From: Desulfobulbus sp. | GTDB taxonomy: Bacteria > Pseudomonadota > Gammaproteobacteria > Burkholderiales > Rhodocyclaceae | Direction of reading: 5' to 3' | DNA: 11,853 nt | Assembly (NCBI GenBank): GCA_009782025.1 | Contig: WQUQ01000180.1 | Span: forward strand, 1 to 11,853 | Part shown: positions 4,505 to 9,054 of the stretch, piece after piece | Layout of the letters: each line of letters opens with the position of its first letter | Position numbering within the stretch: the first letter of the stretch is position 1 | Notes under the pieces: generated by a model | What the model saw: the letters and a program-made list of their open reading frames with translations, nothing else | What the model was told of the DNA's origin: nothing | The model's database searches: none | Position numbers and translations under genes: made by a program

Positions 4505-6502
4505 ATGCTCAACTCATCCCGTTCGGCCCTCGGCCGTTTCTTGCTGGCCTTGGCCCTGTGCCTGTCCCTGCCGCTGGCGGCGCAGACCGAGAGCGGGCCG
4601 GTGGCCGACCCGCCGGGCCGCGTCGGTCGCCTCGGCCAGATCGAGGGCGAGGTCACCTTCCGTCCGCAGCGCGAGGCGACCGCCGACCCGGCCACCGCCA
4701 ACTGGCCGTTGAGCAGCGGCGCGGTACTGGAAACCGGAGCGGATGGCCGGGCCGAAGCCTGGATCGGTTCCATCGCCCTGCGCCTGGGCCAGGCCAGCCG
4801 GCTCGAATTCACCGCCCTCGACGACCGTCAGGCGCTGCTCGACCTGACTGCCGGCCGCTTCGCGCTCAGCGTCATGGATGCCGAACAGGTCGCCGATCTG
4901 CGGCTGCGCTCGCCCGACGGCCAAGTCCGGTTCACCGCCGCCGGGCGCTATCGCCTCGACGTTCTGGCCGACCGCAGCGAGTTGACCGTTTTCGCCGGCA
5001 GCGCCAGCATCGAGCACGATGGCGGTAACACCCAACTGGCCGCCGGCAAGCGGGCCACGCTGTTCGCCGACGGCAACCTGCGCATCGACGAGGCCGGGCG
5101 GCCCGATGCCTTCGACCGCTGGGTCGCCGAGCGCGAGAACGCCACCGTCGCCAGCGCCGCCCGCAGCCACGTTTCGCCCGGCATGACCGGCTTTCAGGAT
5201 CTCGATACTTACGGCGACTGGAACAACAATTCCGATTACGGCGCGGTCTGGTTTCCGCGCGCCGTCGCCAGCGACTGGGCGCCCTACCGTTTCGGCCGCT
5301 GGGCCTGGATCGCCCCCTGGGGCTGGACCTGGATCGACGCCGCGCCGTGGGGCTTCGCCCCCTTCCACTACGGCCGCTGGGTGATGCTTGGCGGCCGCTG
5401 GGCCTGGGTGCCGGGCCAGCGCAGCATCCGGCCGGTGTATGCCCCGGCGCTCGTAGCCTGGATCGGCAATCCCGGCTGGAGCGTCAGCTTCGGCTTCGGC
5501 GCGGCGCCGGCCGTTGGCTGGTTCCCGCTGGCCCCGCGTGAAGTTTTCGTGCCGTATTTCCGCTTCAGTCCCGCTTTCATCTGGCGTCTCAATATCGCCC
5601 ATGTTCATGATGTCACCATCATCGAGCGCGCCGTTCGTGGCGGGCCGCCGCCGCGCTTCGCCTTCCGCGACAGCCCGCAGGCGGTGACCGTGATACCGGC
5701 GCAAAAATTGCGCGAAGGACGGCCGATCGGCGCCCGCGATTTCCAGCGCATCGAGCGCCGTGACCTGGAACGGGCGCCGGCAAGCGCCGGCCGCGACTGG
5801 CTGGCGCCCACCGCCGAGGCCCGCCGACCGTGGGCCGAAGCCAGACCGGGGCAGCCCGGCGCTCCTGGTCTGGCCGGGCCGAGCGGGCGGCCGGGGCCGG
5901 AACGCCGTGATGACATCCGGTCATCGCCAGCCCCCTTCGCCGCAGCGCCGAATCGCCGCGACGGGCCGGCAGCGGCCTTGACCCCGCGCCAGCCGTGGAC
6001 CGGCAACCGGCAGCCGGAACCGATGCCGCCCCGCGAGTCGCGCGATATGCCGCATCCCGCGGCCACAGCGGGCGCTCGCCAATCGCCCGCGACGCCCGCG
6101 CAAGCGCCGTATCCAGCGCCGTCGCAGCGCATGGAGCGCGGCGACCGTCCGGCGCCGCCATCGGCTAATCTGCCTGGGGCACCGACACCGGCCATCCGGC
6201 GCGATGATGCCTTCCAGCGGCCGGCGGCCGGGATGCCGAATGCGCAGCCATCGCGCCCCCAGCCCGCGCCGGAAATGCGTCCATCGCGGGAAATCATGCG
6301 GCCGGCGCCGCAGCCGGACGAAGGCCGGAGTTTTCGCCGGGCCGAGCCGGAAGCGCCGCGGCCGGCCATGCGCGGGCCGGAAGTCAGCCGGGACAGAGAG
6401 CGCGGCAGCCGTGAGCAGAGCGACAGCAGCGACCGCCCGGGTCGCGGCGACCCGAGCGGCGGCGGCCGGGGCGGCGAGCGCGGATCGCGCTGGGACCGGT
6501 GA
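4505..6502 (+). CDS. Exported FecR-domain / DUF6600-type protein with Trp-rich core and Pro/Arg-rich tail
   Basis: A 665-residue exported protein of unknown function. Residues 1-26 form a signal peptide (RFLLALALCLSLPLAA, likely cut before QTES). Residues about 40-187 resemble the FecR beta-rich domain (GQIEGEVTFRP, later LTVFAGSASIEH and AAGKRATLF). Residues about 237-375 match DUF6600-type sequence, with a Trp/Gly-rich core in which YRFGRWAWIAPWGWTW (261-276) is echoed by FHYGRWVMLGGRWAWV (287-302). From about 420 to the end the protein is low-complexity Pro/Arg/Ala, probably disordered, ending in a basic Arg/Gly-rich stretch. The start at 4505 is preferred over an in-frame ATG at 4355 because it begins the signal peptide and follows AGAGGA at 4493-4498. 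No sigma/anti-sigma partner is adjacent, so a role like FecR proper is doubtful; a periplasmic or envelope role is inferred. Confidence 0.8.
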   Translation: MLNSSRSALGRFLLALALCLSLPLAAQTESGPVADPPGRVGRLGQIEGEVTFRPQREATADPATANWPLSSGAVLETGADGRAEAWIGSIALRLGQASRLEFTALDDRQALLDLTAGRFALSVMDAEQVADLRLRSPDGQVRFTAAGRYRLDVLADRSELTVFAGSASIEHDGGNTQLAAGKRATLFADGNLRIDEAGRPDAFDRWVAERENATVASAARSHVSPGMTGFQDLDTYGDWNNNSDYGAVWFPRAVASDWAPYRFGRWAWIAPWGWTWIDAAPWGFAPFHYGRWVMLGGRWAWVPGQRSIRPVYAPALVAWIGNPGWSVSFGFGAAPAVGWFPLAPREVFVPYFRFSPAFIWRLNIAHVHDVTIIERAVRGGPPPRFAFRDSPQAVTVIPAQKLREGRPIGARDFQRIERRDLERAPASAGRDWLAPTAEARRPWAEARPGQPGAPGLAGPSGRPGPERRDDIRSSPAPFAAAPNRRDGPAAALTPRQPWTGNRQPEPMPPRESRDMPHPAATAGARQSPATPAQAPYPAPSQRMERGDRPAPPSANLPGAPTPAIRRDDAFQRPAAGMPNAQPSRPQPAPEMRPSREIMRPAPQPDEGRSFRRAEPEAPRPAMRGPEVSRDRERGSREQSDSSDRPGRGDPSGGGRGGERGSRWDR

Positions 6503-7416: not shown

Positions 7417-8001
7417 ATGTCCATGTCCATCCAGAATGCCAGCGCCTCGCTTTACGCCGCCAATTCCGCTACCGCCGCCGACAAGGCCGGGCCGCGAAAA
7501 CTGGAGAGCGACGCCAGCATGCCAACCACCGCGGCGGGCATCCATCAGGCCGTGCGGCAATCCGTCAACAGGCAGATTCTACAAGAAATCTCCGCCCGGG
7601 TGACGCTGACGGCGGGCCAACAGTCGCAGACTTTGCTGTATCGCTCGGCCATCGACCGGATCAATGACGAATTGGCGCCGCAAATGGGGCCGAACGCGAT
7701 TCAGAACACGATCTCGGCGGGCGTGGATACGTCACCGGAAGCCACGGCAAATCGCATTCTTTCATTTTCAACCGCATTTTTTGAAAGATACGCCGCGCAA
7801 AATCCGGGCAAAGACCGCAATCAATTGGCAACCGATTTTGTCGCCCTGATTCGCGGCGGTTTTGAAAAAGGCTTCAACGAGGCGAAGAATATCCTCAAGG
7901 GCCTTGGCGTTTTGCAAGGCAGCATCGCCGAGGGCATTCAAAAAACCTGGGATTTGGTGCAAAAGGGTTACGACGATTTTCTGGCGTCAAAACTGAACTG
8001 A
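7417..8001 (+). CDS. DUF5610-type protein of unknown function
   Basis: A 194-residue soluble protein with no signal peptide or membrane segment visible. Residues about 1-40 are low-complexity Ala/Ser, followed by an amphipathic helical stretch. The C-terminal two thirds matches what I recall of the DUF5610 family: SPEATANRILSFSTAFFERY (106-125), then FVALIRGGFEKGFNEAKNIL (141-160), and a terminal GIQKTWDLVQKGYDDF. No enzymatic motif is recognisable. A near-perfect Shine-Dalgarno AAGGAGG (7404-7410) lies 6 nt before the ATG, suggesting strong translation. The second half of the gene is visibly richer in A/T than its neighbours. A 16-bp inverted repeat upstream implies dedicated regulation, and it appears to be a single-gene unit between ribE and ssrA. 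The family assignment is from memory of the motif. Confidence 0.75.
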   Translation: MSMSIQNASASLYAANSATAADKAGPRKLESDASMPTTAAGIHQAVRQSVNRQILQEISARVTLTAGQQSQTLLYRSAIDRINDELAPQMGPNAIQNTISAGVDTSPEATANRILSFSTAFFERYAAQNPGKDRNQLATDFVALIRGGFEKGFNEAKNILKGLGVLQGSIAEGIQKTWDLVQKGYDDFLASKLN

Positions 8002-8029
8002 ATTCGTGAAGTATTGCCTGATTCAGCCC

Positions 8030-8058
8030 TTGAAAGCCCGCGCCAGCGCCCCCATAAT
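8030..8058 (+). promoter_or_regulatory. Sigma70-type promoter of ssrA
   Basis: TTGAAA (8030-8035) and CATAAT (8053-8058) are separated by exactly 17 nt, each matching five of six consensus positions. Transcription would start near 8065, just upstream of the tmRNA acceptor piece. This fits the strong constitutive expression expected for tmRNA. Confidence 0.75.
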
Positions 8059-8128
8059 GAAGCCATGGTTGTAATTCCGGCAATCTGGAGGCGTTCTGGA
8101 CAGGGGTTCGATTCCCCTCACCTCCACC

Positions 8129-8153
8129 TGAACCCATCACGGTGGGTTGAGTT
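8129..8153 (+). other. Intervening segment of the permuted tmRNA precursor
   Basis: These 25 nt lie between the acceptor piece 3' end and the coding piece 5' end. AACCCA (8131-8136) and TGGGTT (8143-8148) form a perfect 6-bp stem with a TCACGG loop. The segment is expected to be removed by 5' processing of the coding piece (RNase P-like) and 3' trimming of the acceptor piece, leaving two RNA chains held together by base pairing. Confidence 0.75.
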
Positions 8154-8238
8154 GGGGGTGTACTGGCTTCGACAGGGCGGGCAAAGGTGCGCAGGCAACC
8201 CGAAAGGTGACGGACGTAATCCGCACAAATCCATAAAC

Positions 8239-8271
8239 GCCAACGATGAGCGTTTCGCTATCGCCGCCTAA
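8239..8271 (+). other. tmRNA tag-peptide reading frame (ANDERFAIAA)
   Basis: The resume codon GCC is followed by nine codons and TAA, giving the tag ANDERFAIAA. The preceding CATAAAC matches the usual A-rich context before the resume codon. The hydrophobic C-terminus AIAA is a variant of the common ALAA degron recognised by ClpXP and related proteases; the first residue Ala matches the charged amino acid of tmRNA. Confidence 0.92.
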
Positions 8272-8315
8272 ACGGCATAGCTGGGGCCGCTGAAGCCTTA
8301 TTACCCAAGACAGCC

Positions 8316-8337
8316 GGCGGGGACTTCGGTCCCCGTC
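8316..8337. terminator. Hairpin terminator between ssrA and tonB
   Basis: GGCGGGGAC (8316-8324) pairs with GTCCCCGTC (8329-8337) over nine positions, including one G-U, around a very stable TTCG tetraloop. The U-tract is short (ATTT after 4 nt). It lies where ssrA and the opposite-strand tonB converge and may serve both. Confidence 0.65.
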
Positions 8338-8358
8338 GTCATTTGCGTCAGCGCTCGC

Positions 8359-9054
8359 TCAACCGTCGAGGTGAAAGTCGATGGGTACGATCACCGAGGA
8401 CTCCACCGCTTCGCCGCCGCGCCGGGCCGGCACGAAGCGCCAGCCGGCAACGGCCTGGCAGGCGGCTTCATCGAGGCGGGAGAAATTGCTGGTCTTCTCC
8501 ACATCCACCGCGCCAGGCCGACCATCGGCCGTTACCCGCACCCGGAGCAGCACCTTGCCTTCCTCGCCGAGCCGGCGCGACAGGGGGGGATATTTCGGCT
8601 TCGGATTGTTCAGATAGGCCGCGTTGTAGCGAGCGGCAATCACCACGGGTTCGGCCGAGGGCGCTGCCGCCACGGCGGCGGCGGGGGGGGCGGCGGGAGC
8701 CGCTTCCGTCACGTTCTCGGGCGGCGCGGCGACAAGCGGCGTATCCGGGGTCGGCGGTTGTCGTTCCGGCGACATGGCCAAGATCGGCCGCCGCCGCAGC
8801 GGGTGTTCGACCTGTTTGGCCGGCGTCGGCGACGAGGCGCTGACCGGCTGCGGTTCTGGAATCGGCGGCTGGACTTCGACCGGCCGGACGTCGGCCAATT
8901 GCACCTGCAACGGCCGTGGCATGGCCGCCACAGCCGGGGTGCGCGGCAAAGCCAGCACCGCCAGATGCAACGTCGCCGCGATGAGGAAAAAAGGGCCGCT
9001 CCTGCGCCATTCGGGCAGTTCGGGCGAGCGGTCAGGGCATGGTTCGCGGGACAT
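8359..9054 (-). CDS. tonB: TonB family energy-transducing protein
   Basis: A 231-residue TonB-like protein. Residues about 21-37 (FFLIAATLHLAVLALP) form the single N-terminal membrane anchor with a central His30, equivalent to the functional histidine of the TonB transmembrane helix. The Ser four residues earlier in E. coli is Ala here. A Pro/Ala-rich periplasmic spacer spans about 38-140, and the TonB C-terminal domain about 143-231 (KPKYPPLSRRLGEEGKVLLRV, then ACQAVAGWRFVPA). It couples ExbBD proton-motive energy to outer-membrane receptors. It lies directly downstream of and co-oriented with a TonB-dependent receptor, so it is probably that receptor's dedicated partner; no exbB/exbD are in view. 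An in-frame TAA four codons before the ATG fixes the start, yet there is no Shine-Dalgarno and TAAAAT lies just upstream, consistent with leaderless translation. Confidence 0.9.
   Translation of the reverse strand: MSREPCPDRSPELPEWRRSGPFFLIAATLHLAVLALPRTPAVAAMPRPLQVQLADVRPVEVQPPIPEPQPVSASSPTPAKQVEHPLRRRPILAMSPERQPPTPDTPLVAAPPENVTEAAPAAPPAAAVAAAPSAEPVVIAARYNAAYLNNPKPKYPPLSRRLGEEGKVLLRVRVTADGRPGAVDVEKTSNFSRLDEAACQAVAGWRFVPARRGGEAVESSVIVPIDFHLDG

Follow-up and report, generated by a model that had tools for sequence, protein, structure and literature searches.

A circularly permuted, betaproteobacterial-type tmRNA gene from an Azonexus-like draft genome, and the two gene forms among its relatives

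The betaproteobacterial two-piece tmRNA, the lineage that Rfam covers as RF01850 (beta_tmRNA), reportedly goes back to a founding paper by Sharkady and Williams in 2004. The alphaproteobacterial two-piece tmRNA (RF01849; Caulobacter) is alike in principle, with a permuted gene and a two-piece product, although its lineage is separate; the Caulobacter molecule is reported to function (PMC3985003). Three forms of the tmRNA gene, 11,946 unique permuted sequences and a merged model are described in PMC11915505. The corresponding Rfam model, RF04321 (tmRNA_permuted), is a general one: it shares the tRNA-like domain and the permuted order with the locus studied here but lacks clade-specific 5' and 3' regions.

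We analysed a window of 11,853 nucleotides. The gene found in it does not differ in any essential respect from RF01850, with which it shares the order of the pieces, the acceptor and connector helices, the T-arm, the tag, the terminal hairpin and a full-length score. The pairs printed in that model, however, do not include the intervening helix that we describe below. A permuted gene in itself is a routine annotation result; what is added here is a covarying intervening helix and a repeated change of gene form within the genus.

Identity and parts of the gene

Rfam RF01850 matches positions 8017–8341 of the plus strand with 282.5 bits (E 1.6e-91; cut-off 84) and covers the model from 1 to 331 of its 331 positions, and RF04321 matches 8067–8271 with 172.4 bits (cut-off 47). 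ARAGORN called a permuted tmRNA at 8037–8362, with the tag ANDERFAIAA. The beta two-piece and merged permuted Rfam models and ARAGORN, searches of the kind that the original prediction had suggested, returned a permuted gene, and the span it had proposed (8065–8337) agrees with the RF01850 match, which also takes in a promoter-like site. This is the single match to RF01850 above the cut-off across the host genome; since the assembly is a draft (2.36 Mb in 360 contigs, 79% complete), there is some room for another tmRNA elsewhere in the host. An open reading frame at 8014–8271 was considered as a protein gene and discarded: it has no Pfam match at E 0.001 and corresponds to the tag frame, which is open upstream.

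Table 1. Features of the permuted tmRNA gene in the window.
Feature	Position	Strand	Basis
Sigma-70-like promoter, TTGAAA-17 nt-CATAAT	8030–8058	+	10 of 12 consensus matches; consensus match only
Acceptor piece (3' part of the tmRNA, encoded first)	8060–8128	+	ARAGORN and Rfam; 5' limit approximate
Connector helix (P2), outer strand GGTTG, pairs with 8196–8200	8067–8071	+	RF01850/RF04321 structure line
T-arm, AGGGG TTCGATT CCCCT	8102–8118	+	Sequence and Rfam; sole T-arm-like match on the + strand of the window
Acceptor stem, 3' strand CACCTCC	8119–8125	+	Sequence, Rfam, folding, covariation
Discriminator A and CC of the tail	8126–8128	+	Sequence
Intervening segment, 25 nt, presumed removed	8129–8153	+	Folding and covariation
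Coding piece (5' part of the tmRNA, encoded second)	8154–8337	+	ARAGORN and Rfam; 3' limit approximate
Acceptor stem, 5' strand GGGGGTG	8154–8160	+	Sequence, Rfam, folding
Connector helix (P2), inner strand CAACC	8196–8200	+	Rfam
Tag frame ANDERFAIAA and stop TAA, ends AA-stop	8239–8271	+	Sequence, ARAGORN
3' terminal hairpin, GGCGGGGAC TTCG GTCCCCGTC	8316–8337	+	Part of the Rfam model; without a T-run

The two acceptor strands lie exactly where they had been predicted (Table 1) and pair over all seven positions; six of the pairs are Watson-Crick, and 8123 with 8156 is U-G. This pairing is far beyond chance, since the RF01850 match covers the complete model at the E value given above. The U-G pair, the third of the acceptor stem, is present in 53 of the 53 sequences of the covariation set described below; G-U as the third acceptor pair is the alanine identity pair in tmRNA. 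The T-arm and the 3' acceptor strand are located, as claimed, upstream of the part that carries the tag. Moreover, the T-arm pattern matches the plus strand of the window only at 8105, so on this strand no T-arm lies 3' of the tag, that is, downstream of 8271, in agreement with the absence that had been proposed.

These results bear directly on whether the gene could be a standard one-piece tmRNA that has its 3' end beyond the tag, with an unrelated T-arm upstream. The standard model RF00023 does give a sub-threshold match at 7994–8129 (35 bits; cut-off 47), but nothing resembling a T-arm follows the tag on the plus strand of the window, RF01850 is matched at full length, and the permuted order was found in 37 of 48 genomes of the same genus. 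We therefore consider that a standard gene has virtually no chance of being the right reading, and note that RF00023 has no match above its cut-off anywhere in the 2.36-Mb draft genome. That reading, a standard gene whose 3' end had been overlooked, was rejected on the comparison of the models together with the T-arm scan.

Since the base that follows A-C-C (8126–8128) is T, the full CCA is not encoded, and its last A would have to come after transcription. Sites like the promoter-like one at 8030–8058 occur on average 0.1 times in shuffled sequences. A downstream terminator had also been claimed: the hairpin at 8316–8337 is real, but its status as a terminator is unproven, because it has no T-run and a terminator pattern scan of 7900–8500 found none.

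The RF01850 score of this gene is in the lower range for the genus, whose scores reach 335.9 bits, the intervening helix carries one mismatch, and four positions are flagged as non-standard pairing in each of the Rfam alignments, a few inner positions being among those marked. A permuted tmRNA that has become degenerate or inactive in the host genome could look like this, but we regard such a pseudogene as very improbable: the acceptor stem, the T-arm, the outer connector pairs, the tag and the stop are all intact; smpB is encoded in the host genome, on another contig (G000:C155:6-407, 186.9 bits); and the genes of the related genomes G012, G032 and G041 are very similar (98% over 185 columns for G012). 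The locus is apparently an intact permuted tmRNA gene and a further member of the published family.

In the mechanism that we propose, a single transcript would begin at the promoter-like site and contain, in the order given by the sequence, the acceptor piece, the 25-nt intervening segment and the coding piece. The two pieces would be held together by the acceptor stem and by the connector helix, with the intervening segment extending the acceptor stem, as judged from folding and covariation. RNase P would cut at G8154, and 3' trimming and CCA completion would take place at 8128. Removal of the intervening segment would then leave a nicked two-piece tmRNA, and we infer this cleavage into two RNAs from what is known of the family. 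Charged with alanine and bound by SmpB, as expected from the family, the two-piece tmRNA would rescue stalled ribosomes and tag their products with ANDERFAIAA. Taken together, we assign a probability of roughly 0.96 to the whole explanation, a circularly permuted ssrA of the kind known from Betaproteobacteria, carried by an Azonexus-like draft genome and giving a two-piece tmRNA.

A helix between the two pieces

Positions 8119–8160 fold as a single hairpin (-26 kcal/mol, z -3.5), and none of 200 shuffles equalled it. Stacked atop the acceptor stem, 8128–8129 pair with 8150–8151 and 8131–8137 with 8142–8148; the intervening pair, 8130 with 8149, is broken (G-G).

For the covariation analysis, a regular expression, which can miss odd genes, extracted 65 distinct segments from relatives and named genomes. 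Twelve were dropped (three of 8 nt and nine longer than 34 nt), leaving 53 distinct sequences with segments of 27–34 nt. Three elements were counted jointly: the acceptor stem; the discriminator A paired with the U that precedes G1, a pair present in all 53 sequences; and ten more pairs, beginning with one in which the second C of the tail takes part. Rows in which the 3' strand was shifted were scored as unpaired. Over the acceptor stem and the intervening helix, 93.6% of the cells were paired, compared to 38.5–53.9% when the partners were slid by 1 to 3 columns. Double-sided changes were seen in 52 cells over seven pairs, one of them a pair of the acceptor stem, compared to 13.9 ± 2.7 in shuffles, none of 500 being as high; note that the significance from shuffling is overstated because the 53 sequences are related. 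The intervening segment is thus, by comparative prediction, a covarying helix that extends the acceptor stem.

A second class of permuted genes has just 8 nt between the acceptor strands and encodes CCA (seven loci: L202, L269, L271, L275, L277, L281 and L287). Since 8 nt leave no room for the helix, this element is common but dispensable in some lineages. In the same seven loci about four bases lie between the encoded CCA and G1, which leaves hardly any intervening segment.

Two forms of the gene in one genus

We infer that the genus of the host is Azonexus in the wide GTDB sense. RF01850 was above its cut-off in 37 of 48 genomes of this genus, the host included, several of the genes being cut by contig ends. 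Seven others carry a standard tmRNA (175.8–197.5 bits) and no permuted gene above cut-off, and neither form was found in the remaining four (G020, G022, G035 and G037, which are 74–86% complete). The family draw adds to the genus one permuted (G141) and one standard genome (G225, no permuted gene at E 1e-12), giving 38 permuted, 8 standard and 4 with neither form found among 50. The standard-form genomes are G010, G014, G015, G016, G019, G029, G031 and G225; their RF00023 genes belong to the same genus, have the same function and lie near tonB in several species, but differ in their uninterrupted order, their length of 358–362 nt, the encoded CCA and a longer region between tag and T-arm. The order with swapped ends is a known arrangement; a gene of ordinary order in several close relatives is less expected.

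In the family draw, the permuted gene was above cut-off in 75 of 199 genomes and in 33 of 68 genera, while none passed the cut-off of RF01850 or RF04321 among 32 genomes that belong to the same order but to different families. Among named genomes, a DNA pattern returned 47 stretches titled Azonexus, Dechloromonas, Thauera and unclassified bacteria. Three other genera (g39, g60 and g62) also have both forms, in different species. Note that the permuted genes of G260 and G166 could be misbinned, since their contigs have only 4,701 and 8,296 bases.

Among 86 relatives that carry a permuted gene and were checked for a standard one, a single genome (G091) has both; the 86 comprise all 37 same-genus permuted relatives and 49 of the 71 permuted genomes from other genera. 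In the first 80 of them the standard gene was sought at E 1e-20 or better, and G091 alone had one; it was absent from the six further ones (G026, G040, G011, G023, G104 and G145). G091, a draft of about 110 contigs, carries the permuted gene on C87 (L269) and the standard one at C3:3502-3875 (L308), which is either coexistence or a misbinned contig.

Several draft contigs end in or at the tmRNA gene (G003, G004, G006, G008, G011 and G025, permuted; G016, standard), as if the assembly graphs branched at this conserved gene. The permuted gene of G026 (L203, G026:C10, about 5558–5849) lacks, relative to G042, 39 nt that run from ahead of the tag into its first codons; the gene may be damaged, or the assembly may be wrong here.

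Host trees were built with mnmG (80 genomes queried, 78 matched and 74 used; G008, G028 and G056 were partial and G087 had an inner stop) and with rpoB (51 queried, 43 matched and 42 used; G001 was split). These are quick trees whose support comes solely from SH-aLRT, and the rpoB branch of G010 is long (0.46). In the combined rpoB and mnmG tree of 42 genomes, the standard-form species fall in six places; at least six changes of form are required, all six forced by starred branches, although such counts alone cannot separate gain from loss. A single clade of the eight standard species was rejected (p-AU 2.4e-6). The tree of rpoB alone also gave six changes and rejected the single standard clade; with mnmG alone (51 rows) there were six changes, five of them forced, and the single standard clade was not rejected (p-AU 0.078). 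On the rpoB and combined trees the form labels were barely more clustered than shuffled ones (43–63 of 500 shuffles were as low). Since the first branch within the genus (G000, G012 and G032) is permuted, these trees suggest that the standard form came later in the genus.

In the tree of the tmRNA genes themselves, a single long branch (0.982) separates 58 permuted cores from 27 standard ones. The permuted form of the family therefore looks like one old lineage, long branches calling for caution. Permuted and some standard genes lie on opposite strands beside tonB, which raised the idea that the permutation arose by inversion of each half in place. This idea is unsupported, because the cores group apart, so that the local permuted genes do not appear to descend from their standard counterparts nearby.

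How, then, did both forms come to be in one genus? The ancestor may have had both, each species losing one or the other with no horizontal exchange. All but one of the eight standard genes found in the genus do group in a single clade of the gene tree (95/97), with hosts that are scattered, that of G029 being identical to that of G031 and that of G014 close to those of G010 and G225; tonB is near both forms in several species; and AU tests on the short tmRNA genes reject nothing, whether the clade imposed holds the genus's eight standard genes (p 0.105) or its 37 permuted ones (p 0.158, or 0.723 without G040). We nevertheless think such differential loss rather unlikely: none of the 37 same-genus permuted relatives carries a standard gene, coexistence is limited to the one genome in 86, and two genes have their closest affinities outside the genus, the standard gene of G019 being closest to that of G082 (89%) and the permuted gene of G040 pairing with that of G091 (100/99). 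Horizontal replacement appears from these gene comparisons to be the better reading, although it is not proven: the permuted gene would have been swapped for the standard one several times in the genus, probably by horizontal transfer, as the trees suggest. We see it as an even bet that permuted and standard ssrA are interchangeable, near-exclusive versions of a housekeeping gene in this genus, with about six horizontal replacements, partly beside the same tonB, and that the covarying helix may aid processing wherever the gene lands.

The origin of the permutation and the retention of the split RNA are usually studied across deep lineages and old events. Sister species that differ in form within a single genus could matter here, as they offer matched pairs to compare processing, fitness and island integration. 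Among the literature matches listed, titles and abstract openings showed no paper on switching of form within a genus, which by itself does not establish that there is none.

Neighbourhoods and mobile carriage

In the window, parB, parA, rsmG and mnmG are found on the minus strand. The other neighbours are genes for a DUF6600 protein, a lumazine-binding (riboflavin-synthase-like) protein and a DUF5610 protein; next come tonB, convergent with the tmRNA gene, and a TonB-dependent receptor. For 13 of the 18 permuted loci mapped in the genus the stretch includes a right-hand neighbour, which is a convergent tonB in seven cases. The same gene adjoins the standard tmRNA gene in G010, G225, G015 and G014, and in G031 the standard gene adjoins a member of the tonB cluster that we take to be exbD-like. 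Outside the genus, 9 of 19 mapped standard loci have the standard gene directly after gph, itself after ubiG (names that we presume from the sequences), and permuted genes occupy that gph-adjacent place in G099, G132 and G260.

Islands at tmRNA genes are well known (PMC4383910). In the genus, the standard gene of G019 is followed by a phage-type integrase, and that of G015 has an integrase arm domain next to it. Gene family F18, found after the standard gene of G019, also follows in G082, G085 and G107.

Among 50,697 phage records, 13 matched the gene, all of them cyanophages and over just 12% of the query, and 2 of 72,556 plasmid records matched. A Cupriavidus plasmid of 278 kb (L329, NZ_CP017753.1, 240718–241005) has an apparent permuted tmRNA, with 78.6% identity over 99% of the query, at a place where an incomplete annotation table lists no gene. 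Finally, 20 contigs of a viral collection carry a short pattern of the gene; all 19 that were scanned (L319 was left out) pass RF04321, and 8 of the 19 pass RF01850, seven of these with 87.8–130.4 bits. The best of the scanned contigs, L326 (IMGVR_UViG_3300045950_000336), carries at 177–502 a permuted tmRNA of beta type that scores 298.2 bits.
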